Of a stretch of DNA of 64,000 nucleotides, positions 46,380-57,358 are shown piece by piece. The notes under the pieces were generated by a model, which saw nothing but the letters and a program-made list of their open reading frames with translations, did not search any database and had not been told where the DNA came from. Both the position numbers and the translations under genes were made by a program. The stretch covers positions 1 to 64,000 of the forward strand of contig NZ_AZXF01000022.1 of NCBI RefSeq assembly GCF_000515115.1, in the 5' to 3' direction. The stretch is from Nocardiopsis sp. CNT312. GTDB lineage: Bacteria; Actinomycetota; Actinomycetes; Streptosporangiales; Streptosporangiaceae. Numbering within the stretch: the stretch's first letter is position 1; every line of letters starts with the position of its first letter.

Positions 46380-47567
46380 ATGACGGATTCGCAGACTGAT
46401 GCGCCGATCAACGAGGACACCGTCTCCAGAATCATTCGTGACCTGGTGACCAAACGTGAATGGTTCGCCTTCGCAGCTCAGGGAACCGCAATCCTCGCCA
46501 GTCTGATCGTCGACAACCTCCCCCCAAACGGAGAACTGGTTCTGTTCGTTCTCCTGATCACCCATTCCGGGCTTGCCTGCTGGTGCTTCTACAAGCGCAA
46601 GGGACCATTCGGGCTCGGCTGGGTGAGCGCAACCATCTGGGTTTGTTCAGCCTTCCTTTCCCCTCTCTTGATGGTTCAACTCATTCCACAGGGCGAATAC
46701 GGAAGCACCCCTTCCTGTGTCCAGATGTGTGGCTACCCTGTCGCCCCCGTACTGGTCATGGCCGCGTACCCCTGGGGACGGAGCCCCGGCACACGTCTGG
46801 CTACAGAACTCGGCGTGCTCCTACTCATTGGGATATCCCCACTACTAGTCATTCTGAGTGCAAATGGCCGATTCACCCCCGAGAATCTTTGGGCGGTTTT
46901 GATGTCATTCCTGTACGTAGCCATCTACTACGTCGCGGGGCGAACGGTGCACAGCATGTGCAAGCAAGCGGCCAACAACCAAGCAGACCAGACAAAAAGA
47001 GAGCTCAAGATCCTTGATAATCTATTTCACAGTGACAGCATAATCCTTCTTTCCCGCCTAAAAGAAAGGGCTGAGAATGGAGAATTTGAAAAAATACCAA
47101 GACTGATCGAAGAAGCAGAAAAAAACATGCGCAAAGCAGAGATAGACACCTATTTGCGCATGCCTAATGTAAACGTCTTACGCCTACTGAGGAAATACAT
47201 TAATACATCACCGATCCGAGACCAGATAATATTGAGAGCACCCTCGGGTTCATTCACTCTGGAGAATCGTGCAGGAGAAGTGGTGTACAGAACAGTCTCT
47301 GCACTCGTAACCAACGCCCAGCAACACGGAAGCCTCCCGGTTTTCCTCACTCCGAACTGCGTAAGAAATGTTTTTTACCTGGAAGTTAGAGACTCGGGAA
47401 ACGGGATCAATTCCAACGAACTGAATAACGAAAGAAACAGCCTGCCCAGCATGCGAAAAGAGCTACGAAGACTAGGGGGAGATCTGACCATTAAATCCAC
47501 ACCTGGCGAAGGAGCACGACTTTTGCTATACGTTCCCGTAGAGCACGGCCCCGAATCTGAAGCGTAG
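46380..47567 (+). CDS. membrane sensor histidine kinase, atypical
   Basis: This is a 395-residue protein. The N-terminal 190 residues contain about five or six membrane segments (ILASLIVDN, LVLFVLLITHSGLACWCF, LLLIGISPLLVILS, FLYVAIYYVAG). A helical segment holds the candidate phospho-acceptor His217 in ILDNLFHSDSIILLSRLK, which does not match classical H-box patterns. The ATPase shows N-box SALVTNAQQHG, G1 VRDSGNGI and G2-like TPGEGARL. The 3' half is AT-rich with codon use unlike its neighbours, suggesting transfer. It is first gene of a three-gene operon. Confidence 0.85.
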   Translation: MTDSQTDAPINEDTVSRIIRDLVTKREWFAFAAQGTAILASLIVDNLPPNGELVLFVLLITHSGLACWCFYKRKGPFGLGWVSATIWVCSAFLSPLLMVQLIPQGEYGSTPSCVQMCGYPVAPVLVMAAYPWGRSPGTRLATELGVLLLIGISPLLVILSANGRFTPENLWAVLMSFLYVAIYYVAGRTVHSMCKQAANNQADQTKRELKILDNLFHSDSIILLSRLKERAENGEFEKIPRLIEEAEKNMRKAEIDTYLRMPNVNVLRLLRKYINTSPIRDQIILRAPSGSFTLENRAGEVVYRTVSALVTNAQQHGSLPVFLTPNCVRNVFYLEVRDSGNGINSNELNNERNSLPSMRKELRRLGGDLTIKSTPGEGARLLLYVPVEHGPESEA

Positions 47568-47574
47568 GAATGAG

Positions 47575-48330
47575 ATGGATGTTCTTCTGGTTGATGACGC
47601 CATACTCATCGATGACGTTGCAGAGGGACTAACCAGGAGAGGTCACCAAGTACACACGGCCAGCGACCCGCACCAAGCAAGACAGGCGCTGAATAGACAC
47701 ACCTTCGACGTCGCCTTGGTTGACATTCTTTACACTCAAGAAGTCGATTCTTTGGAGGAGAATCGGAGGAAGAAGAAACTATCCATCACCCATGGACCCT
47801 TCATTGCCAGTTGCCTAATGGTTTTGAAATCAATCTCCGACCTGCAGCCCAATGTCCGCACCGCCCTCTGGTCCGAAAGCGACGACAAACGCCTCCTCCA
47901 TATGCGCTACGCCCAGGAACACTTCGGCGTGAAGAATTTCTACCGCAAGAACACCAGTGGCAGCTCTAGACTTGACCAAGCCATACGGGAAACTGCAGCA
48001 GGAAAGAAGTACATTGATCCGGGACTCGAAGAGGAAGGCATCGGGGCCCCCTGGATCCCCCTCGGCATGACTTTGCTGGCCAATCCTCGGCATCTTCCCC
48101 TATGGCGGGCCTTGGCCTGCGGCGCACGATCGAACCACGCGATCAAAAAAGCAGTGACACAGGCTGGCCTGTCCTACAAAAGAGACGACCTTGGCGAAAT
48201 GGCACGGGAGGCCAGCTCCACACGCCCTTTCGACGATCTTGACGGGAACCCTCTGGCATATTGCAGTGTATATGCTCAGATCCACCAAGCATTCTTGTTC
48301 GATGCGACAATCGCAGAACAGATCAAATGA
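47575..48330 (+). CDS. atypical response regulator
   Basis: This is a 251-residue protein starting 7 nt after the kinase stop, with AGGAATGAG as SD. The receiver domain has acidic pair DD (residues 7-8, in VLLVDDA), phospho-acceptor Asp50 (DVALVDILY), Ser/Thr around ALWSES and Lys125 in NFYRKN. A roughly 25-residue charged insertion (SLEENRRKKKLS) follows Asp50, unusual for a receiver. The C-terminal 90 residues (LACGARSNHAIKKAVTQAGLS) may form a divergent helix-turn-helix, but no known output family was recognised. It probably receives phosphate from the upstream kinase. Confidence 0.8.
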   Translation: MDVLLVDDAILIDDVAEGLTRRGHQVHTASDPHQARQALNRHTFDVALVDILYTQEVDSLEENRRKKKLSITHGPFIASCLMVLKSISDLQPNVRTALWSESDDKRLLHMRYAQEHFGVKNFYRKNTSGSSRLDQAIRETAAGKKYIDPGLEEEGIGAPWIPLGMTLLANPRHLPLWRALACGARSNHAIKKAVTQAGLSYKRDDLGEMAREASSTRPFDDLDGNPLAYCSVYAQIHQAFLFDATIAEQIK

Positions 48331-49045: not shown

Positions 49046-49646
49046 CAGGGCTGTTTCAAATTCGGAGTGAGAGACGTGTTCTCCCCGACCGGGGGATCCT
49101 CAGCCGACCAAGAGAGCGGGTGAACGCCTCGTAGGAGACCCAGCGGACCGCTTCGGGAATGCTGGACATTCCCAGCCCCGCCAGCAGCGGGAGGCCCGGT
49201 TACGCAGCATCGCCATCCCCGGCACGCACTCGGGAGGCATCCTCGCCCAAGCTCACGTCCCACACATGGTGTAGCGCCTCAATCCGCCCATGCCCCCGCA
49301 CCAGGCCCGCCAATCGCTCCGGGCCGGCCTGCGCCGCGCTCAGACTCGTGACCACGTAGGCGTAGGTGCGCCGTACCCTCCCGGTGGCCAGGTCCTTGAC
49401 CCACCTGTGCGCCCGTAGCACCTTCTTCGTGTACGCGAACGCGGTCTTCGGTGTGGTGAGCACCCTCACGGCTTTGGTCTCATACCGCACGTGGCCCCGC
49501 TCCGCGGTGGGGAACAGGGTGGGCTCCTGCACCCACGGCAGCGCTTTGACCTGGGCGAACAAGGTCGGCTGGTTGGCCTTCGCCGTCAGGACGCAGGGTG
49601 CCTTGCGTTCGGCGACCAGGTGTTTGGCGGTGTCGGTCCTGGTGTG
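49046..49646 (-). mobile_element. truncated second copy of the ISAs1-type element
   Basis: The outer end CAGGGCTGTTTCAAA is intact at 49046 and the transposase C-terminal half is recognisable (KAPCVLTAKANQPTLFAQVK, KDLATGRVRRTYAYVVTSL, HVWDVSLGEDASRVRAG). The other half and end are gone, replaced by the PhyH gene at 49641-49646. A frameshift or deletion near 49200 breaks the transposase tail. It differs from the copy at 1-1289 at many positions, so it is an older insertion. Confidence 0.88.
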
Positions 49647-50186
49647 CGAACCCGGCAGGACACAGAGCGCGCCCTCCTCGCGGGTCACCCGCCGGAGGTA
49701 GATCAGGCAGTGGATCTGGTGCGGAAAGCAGAAGAGGGGCGGGAGCGGGTCCGGGATCACGGGTGTGTGGGCGTGCCAGGGCACGGCGACACCGGCCCGG
49801 CCCGCGTAGTTCATCCGGGCCTCCAGGTCGATCCACACCTGGGGACCGAGGAGCGACCGGGCGATGGACAGCGCCGGTTCGAGTTCGATGAGCGGGTGGA
49901 AGGCCCGGTCCTTGTCGAGCAGGGAGCGGAGGTAGATGTTCTCGCCGGGGAGGTGCTCGGCCTCCGACAGGCCCTCCTCCGCCTCGGCGAGCCCCGCGAC
50001 GGCCCCGGACAGCTCGGCCGCGGTCTGCGGTGTGAGCATGCGGCGGTGCACGAGGTAGCCGTCGCGGACGAGCGCCTCCAGGTCCCCGGCACGGGCCGGG
50101 GTGGTGACGGAGCGGGTTGGGTAGCCGTTGACCTGGTCGTTGATCACGAAGTCCGTGCGTAGCCCGGGTACTTCACCGGGGGTCAT
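49200..50186 (-). pseudogene. PhyH-type oxygenase truncated and fused to transposase remnant
   Basis: The open frame of 328 residues starts with an SD-preceded ATG and encodes about 180 residues of a phytanoyl-CoA-dioxygenase-like 2-oxoglutarate/Fe oxygenase: ARAGDLEALVRDGYLVHRRML, MNYAGRAGVAVPWHAHTP (candidate first His ligand), CLIYLRRVTREEGALCVLPGSH (second His ligand). At CACACC (49641-49646) it continues in frame into the tail of an ISAs1 transposase. The region after the second His, including the 2-oxoglutarate-binding Arg, is lost, so activity is unlikely. It is third in the cluster with DUF6879. Confidence 0.85.
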
Positions 50187-50237
50187 GTGTTCTCCACCGT
50201 GCTGAACGGGGTGTCCGGGGCCGTCGGCGGTGCGTGC

Positions 50238-50810
50238 CTACCGACCGGCCGCCTGCGCGTGCGCCGCGGTCCCGGGTACCGCCAGCGGTTCGCTGCGGAT
50301 CGCCCTGAGCAGTTCGGCGAGGGGGAACGAGCGCCGGTGGAACTCCTGCCACGCGGCCCTGGCCTCCGTGAGCCGCGCCGGGTCCTCGTTGTTGTTGATG
50401 TAGAGCAGGCACCCCTGGTCGTCGTAGCTCAGGTCCAAAACGGTGGTGTCGTCGAAGATCCAGGTGTCGGTGTAGACCAGGTCGGGGACGTCCTCGCGGA
50501 AGATGAAGCGGATGTCCTCGCCCGCGGCCCCGTTGACGGCGTAGTACCAGTCGATCTCGAACTGGAGGTAGGGGGTGAGGTGACGGTCGATGATGTGGAC
50601 CCGGCCCATGTACTTTCCCGCGGCCGCGCACGCCCGTATGTTGTCCGCCCACTCCCTGTTGCGGTCGGGCGGCAGCGGCGCACCGCTCATGTAGAGGTCG
50701 TAGTTCTCCCTTTCCTCTCCGACATCATAGGCCCCGAGGGTTTCGATGCGTGTGGCCGATGAGGAAAAATCGGTAAAGTAGCGCCCGAACTGCTCCATAT
50801 TAATGATCAT
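50238..50810 (-). CDS. DUF6879 family protein
   Basis: This 190-residue protein is of a family common in actinomycetes near Scr1/DUF397-type regulators. Family pattern: EQFGRYFTDFSSSATRIETL, GAYDVGEERENYDLYMSG, EWADNIRACAAAGKYMGRVH, LTPYLQFEIDWYYAVNGAAG, EDIRFIFRED, TDTWIFDDTTVLDLSYDDQG and a closing EARAAWQEFHRRSFPLAEL. ATG at 50810 (MIIN) has AAGGGA about 8 nt upstream. Biochemical function is unknown. It lies between the 66-residue gene and the PhyH gene on the same strand, a likely operon. Confidence 0.85.
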   Translation of the reverse strand: MIINMEQFGRYFTDFSSSATRIETLGAYDVGEERENYDLYMSGAPLPPDRNREWADNIRACAAAGKYMGRVHIIDRHLTPYLQFEIDWYYAVNGAAGEDIRFIFREDVPDLVYTDTWIFDDTTVLDLSYDDQGCLLYINNNEDPARLTEARAAWQEFHRRSFPLAELLRAIRSEPLAVPGTAAHAQAAGR

Positions 50811-50904
50811 GGGATATTTCCCTTGTGTCGTTCGTGTTCCGGGCGGGCCGCGCCGCCCCCGGGAAGCGTCGCCCACGCAACACCCACCGGGGACGGGGAC
50901 GGGG

Positions 50905-51105
50905 TCAGGATCCGTCGCTGGCCAGGGCTCTTTCGAGGATGTAGCGGGGGATCTCGACCAGGTTCTCACCAGGAGGAAGGCTGATCCCCACACGTTCTCC
51001 GTCGACGGAGAAACCCTGTACCACGATGGTCTTGTTCTCGGTTTCGTAGACCGTCGGGCAGGGGCCGTTCCCACACCCGGATCCACCGATCTGCTTGAGT
51101 GCCAC
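50905..51105 (-). CDS. 66-residue protein with CGNGPCPTVYET motif
   Basis: This small protein starts at GTG 51105 with GAGGAG six nt upstream. The N-terminus ALKQIGGSGCGNGPCPTVYE holds two Cys spaced by four residues; the rest is beta-rich (TIVVQGFSVDGERVGISL, PPGENLVEIPRYILERAL). This resembles small actinomycete proteins encoded with DUF6879; their role is unknown. It is the first gene of the cluster. The 196 nt upstream to 51301 are AT-richer and should contain its promoter. Confidence 0.7.
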   Translation of the reverse strand: MALKQIGGSGCGNGPCPTVYETENKTIVVQGFSVDGERVGISLPPGENLVEIPRYILERALASDGS

Positions 51106-51301: not shown

Positions 51302-52174
51302 TCAGGAGAGCTTCAGACCGACGTGGTCGACGATCAGTCGCCCCTGCTCCGGGTCGAGGGCGAAGTAGATACGGCCCACCTGCGAGGGGGCTGTGTAGTC
51401 CCGAACCTTGACGTGCGGAACGCGCAACCAGGTGCGGTCCTCGTAGACGAAGTGGCGGAGCTTGGCGTCGCGCCCGATCGCCTGGTCCTGCAAGGCCACC
51501 TTCAGGTCGAACTCGTCCCTGATCCAGGTGTCCAGGTGCGGCATGGACCGCTCCGTGCCGTCGTACAGGGCGGTGGCCACGCGGGCGAGCTTGACCAGGC
51601 ACTCGGTCATCTCTTCCGGGAAGGGGTACTTGCTCTTCTTCCACGTGATCTCGGCGTGCGGGGTGAAGACGATCCTGCCGGAGGAGAGGTCCTGGAGTTG
51701 CAGGAAGAGTTCCTCGGCGCTGGCGGCGTCCCCGGTGACGAGGGCCGGCAGGTTCTCCCAGGCGTCCTCCGGTTCGACCGGTCGCTCCGGCGGCCCCTGC
51801 GTGGCGCGCAGCGCTTGGCGGAGCTGCTCCACATGGTCCTCCAGGGCGGGTACCTTCTCGGCATCATCCTTGTACCGTTCGGCCCTGCGCTCCTCCTCCG
51901 TCGCGAGCCGCTCCCAATCCTCGGCATCGGCGCGGGCGGCTTCGAGTTCCTCTCGGAGGGCCTCCAACTGGGCCGCCATGTCGCCCGTGACCCTGGCCAG
52001 CTCAGACCGGGTGCGCGCCTTGCTGCTCTGCCGGTTGATCTCAGCCTGCCGGGCCCTGCGGAAGGCGTGGTCGGTGCCGCGCGCAAGGACGGAGAGAGGC
52101 GCGAGCACACGCATGAGGCGGTCCCGCACCCGCTCCGGATCGTCCCCGTTGATCTCCTCCTCACCGAAGACCAC
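51302..52174 (-). CDS. coiled-coil protein with uncharacterised C-terminal domain (split-system part B)
   Basis: This 290-residue protein starts at GTG 52174, 54 nt after the upstream gene. Residues about 30-130 form a charged coiled coil (ARVTGDMAAQLEALREELEAA). The C-terminal domain has RIVFTPHAEITWKKSKYPFP, LVKLARVATALYDG, LRHFVYEDRTWLRVPHVKVR and the end GRIYFALDPEQGRLIVDHVG. The H-(V/I)-K, (R)-(I/L)-Y-F and V-G order is shared with the end of the gene at 59511-61292. No enzyme family was recognised. Confidence 0.75.
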   Translation of the reverse strand: MVFGEEEINGDDPERVRDRLMRVLAPLSVLARGTDHAFRRARQAEINRQSSKARTRSELARVTGDMAAQLEALREELEAARADAEDWERLATEEERRAERYKDDAEKVPALEDHVEQLRQALRATQGPPERPVEPEDAWENLPALVTGDAASAEELFLQLQDLSSGRIVFTPHAEITWKKSKYPFPEEMTECLVKLARVATALYDGTERSMPHLDTWIRDEFDLKVALQDQAIGRDAKLRHFVYEDRTWLRVPHVKVRDYTAPSQVGRIYFALDPEQGRLIVDHVGLKLS

Positions 52175-52228
52175 CTGTTTCGCCTCGTGGTCGCTCCAGA
52201 TCAGCCGTGCGCCCGCATAGGGGGGCGC

Positions 52229-52906
52229 CTATCCCGGCAGTCGCTCGTAGAGGCTCCGGGAGGCCCGGTAGTCGAGGGTGACCACGCGGACGAGTCCCAC
52301 GAGTTTGGCAGCGGCCTGCTTGGCCGTTTCGAGTGCGGCGAGTGTCCGCGTGTGCAGCAGGAGCAGCGGGAGCCGGTTGGAGTGAGAGATGATGTCGGCC
52401 AGTGTCTGCACTTCCTGGTCGCTGCGCACCTGGATGTAACGGCCGTCCTGACGCTGTCCGACGACGGTGATGTCGATACCGCTCTTGCGCATGAGCGAAC
52501 GCACGATCCCCGGCTGGTACAGGGCCGGGGCCGGTGCGGGGGAGAGCCAGGTCGCGGAGGTCTCGCGCCCCATCGAGACACGGACGCCGACCGCGCCGCC
52601 GATATCGCTCAAGGTGACGTGTGTGATGAAGGAGGACTCCGTTTCCTCGTCCTCGTCCCTGACCTTGACCCGCAACGCCCGGCACCCCTCGGGTCCGACC
52701 AGCTCCCAGGAGGCCCGGCGGGGGTCGCCGTTCACCTTGTTGTGGCGCAGTTCCCGGGCACCACTGACTCGGAGATCCGCCTCGGAGATCTCGCCGACCG
52801 CGTTGTAGGTCAGCCACTCGCTGACACAGGAGAGCGCCGCCGCGTACGGGAGCACGCCCTCTTCACGCGGGGCCACATCGAAGCCGACGACATAGAGAAC
52901 CTGCAC
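52229..52906 (-). CDS. uncharacterised protein (split-system part A)
   Basis: This 225-residue protein starts at GTG 52906 with GAGGAGGA five nt upstream. Layout: VLYVVGFDVAPREEG, ALSCVSEWLTYNAVGEIS, DLRVSGARELR, CRALRVKVRDEDEETES, then ADIISHSNRLPLLLLHTRT and AAAKLVGLVRVVTLDYRASR. The same order (VLSEWL, VDFSVSGRYEL, LRLITESDK, VEGLVSAINDPERRMALLA) occurs at the N-terminus of the protein encoded at 59511, indicating homology. No membrane segment or known domain was recognised. Confidence 0.75.
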   Translation of the reverse strand: MQVLYVVGFDVAPREEGVLPYAAALSCVSEWLTYNAVGEISEADLRVSGARELRHNKVNGDPRRASWELVGPEGCRALRVKVRDEDEETESSFITHVTLSDIGGAVGVRVSMGRETSATWLSPAPAPALYQPGIVRSLMRKSGIDITVVGQRQDGRYIQVRSDQEVQTLADIISHSNRLPLLLLHTRTLAALETAKQAAAKLVGLVRVVTLDYRASRSLYERLPG

Positions 52907-57112: not shown

Positions 57113-57358
57113 GTGACTGACCAGTTGTCATGGCGAAAGAGCAGCTACAGCGGTGTCAACGGCGAGTGCGTCGAGGTCGCGCACATCCCCTCCCACGTCC
57201 GGAAGAGCAGCTACAGCGGCCAAGAGCCGAGTTGCGTCGAGGTGGCCGACCTGCCCCGTGGCGCGGCCGTCCGCGACTCCAAACACCCCGACACCGGACA
57301 CCTCCCCTTCCCCGCCGCCGAGTGGGCCGGCTTCCTCTCCGCCGCCCTCTCCCGGTAG
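57113..57358 (+). CDS. DUF397 protein with duplicated first repeat
   Basis: This 81-residue DUF397 protein begins at GTG 57113, five nt after the Scr1-type gene. DUF397 is a toxin-like or partner protein of Scr1-type regulators. The hallmark WRKSSYSGVNGECVEVA appears once, then again as VRKSSYSGQEPSCVEVA, followed by GAAVRDSKHP and PFPAAEWAGFLSAAL. Most relatives are about 60 residues with one copy; the extra 20 or so residues come from the internal duplication. Confidence 0.92.
   Translation: MTDQLSWRKSSYSGVNGECVEVAHIPSHVRKSSYSGQEPSCVEVADLPRGAAVRDSKHPDTGHLPFPAAEWAGFLSAALSR

Follow-up and report, generated by a model that had tools for sequence, protein, structure and literature searches.

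The closest described systems are regulator pairs, STAND signalosomes, phospholipase D (PLD)-fold proteins and PhyH oxygenases. XRE-DUF5753/DUF397 pairs (Scr1/Scr2 type) consist of a small protein and a DUF5753 partner. A passage of PMC7159879 links DUF397 to conflict systems, and a passage of PMC13097080 links DUF397 and DUF5753 to graspetide clusters. Part of the account in PMC7889193 describes BASS motifs, which sit at the N-termini of NLR proteins and at the C-termini of BELL-domain proteins. TrmB and TrmBL2 have a PLD fold without catalysis. The catalytic HKD motif of PLD enzymes reads HxKx4D. In the Fe(II)/2-oxoglutarate oxygenases, HxD is part of the 2-His-1-carboxylate triad. The literature that we searched contained no paper joining STAND/NB-ARC conflict systems of actinobacteria with a dioxygenase, and DUF6879 was named in no paper of that literature. 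Here, we describe a locus that has a likeness to each of these systems and differs from all of them. The cluster is real and conserved, and it is undescribed as far as our searches go.

The window, by which we mean the whole stretch of 64,000 nucleotides that was analysed, holds the cluster on its minus strand. A sequence-only reading had described three genes in one direction, a strong Shine-Dalgarno sequence before the 66-aa gene and a broken third gene. The open reading frames together with Pfam/NCBIfam matches bear out this description, and the element that broke the third gene was identified as an ISAs1 transposase remnant. The features are as follows.

50905..51105, minus strand: s66, a 66-aa small protein, defined by its open reading frame and sequence; carries CGNGPCPTVYET
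50238..50810, minus strand: DUF6879 protein, 190 aa (PF21806, E 3.4e-37)
49632..50186, minus strand: PhyH oxygenase, N-terminal 185 residues with PWHAH (HxH) (PF05721)
49203..49631, minus strand: ISAs1 transposase, a C-terminal remnant that continues the reading frame of the PhyH fragment (NF033564)

The s66 gene starts with GTG, and the Shine-Dalgarno sequence GAGGAG lies at 51117-51112, six bases ahead of it. PF21806 matches the DUF6879 protein at 127.9 bits (cut-off 23.9) over profile positions 1-164 of 167. The third open reading frame (50186-49200, 328 aa) is the start of PhyH joined in frame to a transposase tail from about residue 186. PF05721 covers its residues 41-187 (E 5.2e-11, 43.7 bits, cut-off 22), and NF033564 covers residues 181-326 (E 5.9e-15, 55.2 bits), a score that falls under the 70-bit cut-off because the C-terminal half alone of the transposase is left. 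Four other, fuller copies in the same genome match this tail at 67% identity, which marks it as a diverged remnant rather than a recent copy. Since it replaces the C-terminal half of PhyH, the window oxygenase lacks the region of the distal His and the 2-oxoglutarate-binding Arg. What remains is 63% identical to the intact copy of loci L043/L068, and the window copy has probably lost its oxygenase activity. The only trace of a STAND ATPase, the fourth gene of intact relatives, is one weak 59-aa match 20 kb away. With the oxygenase cut in half and no STAND in the window, the function specific to this branch is most likely lost there. Farther out, at 46380-48330 (plus strand), lie genes for a histidine kinase (HATPase_c) and for a protein that resembles a response regulator but scores under the Pfam cut-off. 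Two adjoining genes upstream of s66 (51302-52906, minus strand) gave no convincing Pfam/NCBIfam family, and the first of them looks coiled-coil. The 4.7-Mb genome of the window has 39 DUF397 matches, with one pair in the window near 57128-57346.

Intact relatives were found outside the window. A scan of genome contigs for PhyH gave nine loci, eight of them actinobacterial (five Actinomadura, Amycolatopsis eburnea, Nocardiopsis sp. JB363 and the metagenome-assembled genome G116). Eight of the nine carry s66, DUF6879 and PhyH in this order, and the ninth, from a Pseudomonadales MAG, has PhyH alone. Between the window and eight cassette relatives s66 is 60-81% identical. For the eight actinobacterial scan loci, identity to the window is 64-80% in s66 and 62-73% in DUF6879. 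We also searched 345 genomes of the window's order with PhyH. Fourteen genomes matched at E <= 1e-30, 12 of them at E 2.4e-98 or better and two distantly (about 1e-31). Cassette-type DUF6879 (E <= 1e-45) occurred in the same 12 of 345 genomes, the window's included, and in no others, so that the co-occurrence is strict. The search gave 16 PhyH loci, of which 12 have s66 and DUF6879 alongside and four distant ones do not. Eight of those 12 are the window or scan loci and four are new, which brings the distinct intact loci to 12 (nine Actinomadura-type, one each from Nocardiopsis and Amycolatopsis, and one Streptosporangiaceae MAG). The order s66-DUF6879-PhyH is kept in all 12; these counts are not independent, because nine loci come from one genus-level group. 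The check suggested with the sequence-only reading, whether the 66-residue gene always accompanies intact DUF6879-PhyH neighbours, came out positive in these 12 loci. In the window's family, close PhyH relatives were found in two of 200 genomes, the window's own and G116, where s66, DUF6879 and a whole 273-aa PhyH lie in order. Distant PhyH matches alone (best match in each genome 28-32 bits) were seen in five further family genomes, and in a sample of the phylum the window's own genome was the single one of 396 with PhyH at E <= 1e-30.

The s66, DUF6879 and PhyH genes are under purifying selection, with dN/dS of 0.06-0.49 in five sequence pairs. The conserved order in 12 of 12 loci together with the low dN/dS indicates that the cluster is more than chance. 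The pairwise distances of the gene trees correlate at 0.76-0.92, values that common descent alone would also give. The flanks fall into six groups that have no common flanking gene at 45% identity, as judged with a rough gene caller, and within Actinomadura some loci have flanks in common. In Amycolatopsis the core has a G+C of 0.602 against 0.714 in the flanks. PhyH was absent from plasmids at E <= 1e-10, and no profile relatives of PhyH or DUF6879 were found among viral contigs with stretches matching two peptide patterns.

The link to PhyH does not extend to the DUF6879/s66 family in general. A relative of s66 occurs in 130 of 200 genomes of the window's family. We sampled 33 copies of the wider s66 family, taken from the window's genome and from the loci with the best scores. 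DUF6879 adjoins 25 of them and PhyH none; this, with the single genome of 396 in the phylum, rules out a general partnership. The sequence-only reading had expected PhyH to be a recurrent neighbour. This stands for the present subfamily, with 12 of 12 loci and with both genes confined to one set of 12 among 345 genomes, but not for the wider family. In 29 of the 33 copies, whether DUF6879 is present or not, an XRE-DUF5753 gene follows s66 in the same direction, and three of these XRE proteins were checked with Pfam. The pair was also seen with a STAND. In the window's own genome there is a complete triad of an s66-like protein (89 aa), DUF6879 and STAND with no PhyH (C46, L042:6627-9865). Relatives of the C46 DUF6879 were listed at 30 loci. 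Of these, 28 have s66 upstream, and at 18 a STAND comes immediately after DUF6879; at the other 12, one of which is at a contig end, no adjoining STAND was found. As an XRE gene follows s66 in one sample and a STAND follows the relatives of C46, we read the pair as portable and its outputs as exchangeable; s66-DUF6879 looks like a module attached to differing output proteins. At L150:3434-4492 (minus strand), s66 and DUF6879 lie in one reading frame, as a natural fusion or an overlap, the only such case among 75 s66-bearing frames. This frame has an internal ATG with GGAG ahead of it, and separate translation of the two proteins is possible. In L055, L057 and five further loci, s66 occurs without DUF6879.

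The s66 protein belongs to no Pfam or NCBIfam family. Its Cys11 and Cys16 are invariant in nine of nine cassette sequences, which have 30 invariant columns, and the double-Cys stretch CxxxxCP also occurs in some copies without PhyH. Membership in DUF397 (PF04149), which the layout had suggested, was rejected, as hhalign gave 1.0% over 9 columns (41 vs 25 sequences). We set aside a role as RiPP precursor, since conservation extends over the whole length of s66 and the gene is common beside XRE regulators. Searches for solved relatives by sequence returned weak unrelated matches only, at E 0.16 and worse for DUF6879 and at E 0.37 and worse for s66. Upstream of s66 in L135 and L138 there are XRE-DUF397 pairs, and L138 has another such pair where the N-terminus of the STAND would be expected. 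The cluster resembles the Scr1/Scr2 type in that a small protein is joined to a partner with a predicted relationship to DUF5753. It differs in that s66 shows no detectable relation to DUF397, DUF6879 is a separate protein that has no helix-turn-helix domain, and this branch has PhyH and a STAND in place of XRE.

DUF6879 is predicted to adopt a phospholipase-D-like fold without the HKD motif. Its AlphaFold2 model has a mean pLDDT of 80.8. The best Foldseek matches of the model are NucT, PLD3 and Nuc (best E 5.6e-5, 6ehi), and VIA-align gave Z 11.0 to PLD3 (8q1k), 10.9 to Nuc (1byr) and 10.1 to TrmBL2, where Z 7-8 is typical for models without a clear match. This match covers a common arrangement, and the shared fold shows no function. 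The motif HxKx4D was found in none of 25 DUF6879 sequences. In this respect the DUF6879 model is like TrmB/TrmBL2, in which the PLD fold is also kept without catalysis, but the sequence identity is about 10% and DUF6879 has no helix-turn-helix domain. A relationship between DUF6879 and DUF5753 (PF19054) is likewise predicted. A profile comparison with hhalign gave 90.1% (E 1.6e-6), but over 67 columns only; eight unrelated control pairs were at or below 0.4%. PF21806 also reaches an XRE-DUF5753 protein at E 0.009.

The oxygenase has an unusual motif. Intact PhyH (L043) matches PF05721 at 65.4 bits (cut-off 22). All 14 aligned rows read PWHxH; 13 of them are cassette copies, counting the one in the window, and one is the Pseudomonadales protein. 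HxD stands in the same columns of 8 of 8 outgroup rows, which amount to about five independent ones since L066 and L122 are the same gene and L062/L064 and L119/L121 are near-identical pairs; the outgroup loci L061, L065 and L067, which had no tblastn match, were left out. The second His of HxH aligns with the Asp of WHQD in solved proteins. All 12 intact cassette rows and L076 retain the distal His (WH) and the following Arg, both of which are missing in the window copy. The AlphaFold2 model of PhyH, built from 10 sequences, was poor (mean pLDDT 36.6), and the metal site was therefore read from alignments alone. The Pseudomonadales PhyH (L076:740-1699, plus strand) has the same HxH beside unrelated genes. 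As HxH is present there without the cassette genes, it is older than the cassette. The cassette enzymes thus share PF05721, the distal His and the Arg with Fe(II)/2-oxoglutarate PhyH oxygenases, the nearest solved ones being 7e01/7dzz, EctD, the leucine hydroxylase 5nch and 2rdn. They differ from these by HxH in place of HxD and, in the actinobacterial loci found, always occur with s66 and DUF6879.

A fourth gene usually belongs to the cluster. An NB-ARC/TPR STAND ATPase of about 790 aa is whole beside the cassette in 10 of 12 intact loci, truncated in L138 and absent in L135. It lies tail to tail with PhyH in nine loci and in the same direction in Amycolatopsis. The L075 protein, for example, scores 25.1 bits for NB-ARC (cut-off 23.5) and 82.5 for TPR_12. 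Where the STAND is present its dN/dS is 0.18-0.35. In L135 and L138, dN/dS is 0.09 for s66, 0.22 for DUF6879 and 0.06 for PhyH; purifying selection persists where the STAND has been lost or cut, which speaks against the STAND being indispensable. A GNAT acetyltransferase gene lies between PhyH and STAND in five of 12 intact loci. Each of the 10 whole STANDs has a VVQARDxxGxIxF-like motif at its N-terminus. A 113-aa protein encoded next to the cassette in L068 (4675-5016, plus strand) ends in this motif, and 15-30 aa of it match the STAND N-termini of seven other loci (E <= 0.007). In L072 (11533-11871, plus strand) there is also a small protein beside the cassette, with a different tail; both small proteins look helical. 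Like the BASS/BELL signalosomes, the locus has NB-ARC, TPR and a short motif that recurs at the STAND N-terminus and at the C-terminus of the L068 neighbour. In contrast to those signalosomes, the regular neighbours here are s66, DUF6879 and an oxygenase, and a BELL-like protein is present in two of 12 loci. PADLOC returned nothing for s66, DUF6879 or PhyH, and for the STAND a general TPR model and two weak P-loop matches.

In our preferred reading, to which we give a probability of roughly 0.45, the window carries the decayed remains of a horizontally spread signalling island, in which a protein pair senses a ligand made by an oxygenase and sets a STAND. The intact island would comprise s66, DUF6879, PhyH of the HxH type, sometimes GNAT, and the NB-ARC/TPR STAND ATPase. 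s66 and DUF6879 may form a sensor or adaptor pair, with DUF6879 as a putative non-catalytic PLD-fold domain akin to the DUF5753 of XRE regulators. As its output this pair would usually have an XRE-DUF5753 repressor; a STAND would take that place in a second branch, and a STAND with the oxygenase in the present one. The oxygenase, together with GNAT where present, would make or modify a small ligand that is read by s66-DUF6879, and the pair would then set the state of the STAND switch. The ligand, the complex and the direction of signalling are what we infer here from gene content and order. A more specific version seems doubtful to us: the iron of cassette PhyH would be held by three His, the two of HxH and the distal one, and the enzyme would make or edit a signal. 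DUF6879 with s66, as a PLD-fold sensor without catalysis, would hand this signal on to the NLR-like STAND, and together they may form an oxygen-gated circuit for signalling or immunity.

Other explanations account for part of the same evidence. The STAND might be the NLR-like receptor of a conflict or cell-death system and nucleate an effector through its N-terminal amyloid-like motif, while s66, DUF6879 and PhyH sense or modify. The motif in the STANDs of 10 intact loci, the L068 neighbour that ends in the same motif, as in the BASS/BELL layout given in a passage of PMC7889193, and the differing contexts of the cassette agree with this. However, a BELL-like neighbour is present in two of 12 loci only, the one in L072 has another tail, and PADLOC gave nothing specific, so that we regard a conflict system as conceivable but improbable. 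The proposal of the sequence-only reading, that PhyH hydroxylates s66 as a protein substrate or that s66 is a cofactor of PhyH, would fit with the retention of both genes in 12 of 12 intact loci and with the strong conservation of s66 in its 30 invariant columns. We consider it unlikely. The s66 family is common without PhyH (PhyH beside none of the 33 sampled copies), and the main role of s66 therefore cannot depend on PhyH; CxxxxCP is found in some PhyH-free copies as well; and the solved relatives of PhyH are mostly named as small-molecule enzymes (ectoine, leucine and 1-deoxypentalenic acid hydroxylases).

Hydroxylases of natural products are among those nearest solved relatives, GNAT directly follows PhyH in five of 12 loci, and a passage of PMC10364602 describes regulation of antibiotic production by XRE-DUF397 pairs. 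These observations are consistent with a tailoring mini-cluster, in which a secondary metabolite would be modified by PhyH and GNAT, with s66, DUF6879 and STAND serving only as regulators. But no scaffold-making gene is common to the flanks of different groups and GNAT is missing in seven of 12 loci, and we hold this to be quite unlikely. Least probable, and in our view very improbable, is a toxin-antitoxin pair with s66 or DUF6879 as toxin. XRE-DUF397 pairs, which have a similar layout, were proposed as such in passages of PMC7159879 and PMC10364602; yet, as part of PMC10364602 reports, overexpression of 14 DUF397 proteins in S. coelicolor gave no clear toxicity. Moreover, s66 is not detectably a DUF397 protein, and the seven loci with s66 and no DUF6879 argue against a pair of this kind.

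For the family, this gives DUF6879 and s66 a first testable role, that of a portable two-protein module placed on XRE, on STAND, or on STAND with an oxygenase. Both DUF6879 and the s66 family occur widely among the bacteria of the window's family. The conserved HxH in place of HxD raises the question of whether three His suffice for activity in a PhyH-fold enzyme. Should the module be a sensor, its ligand could be sought through the oxygenase branch.
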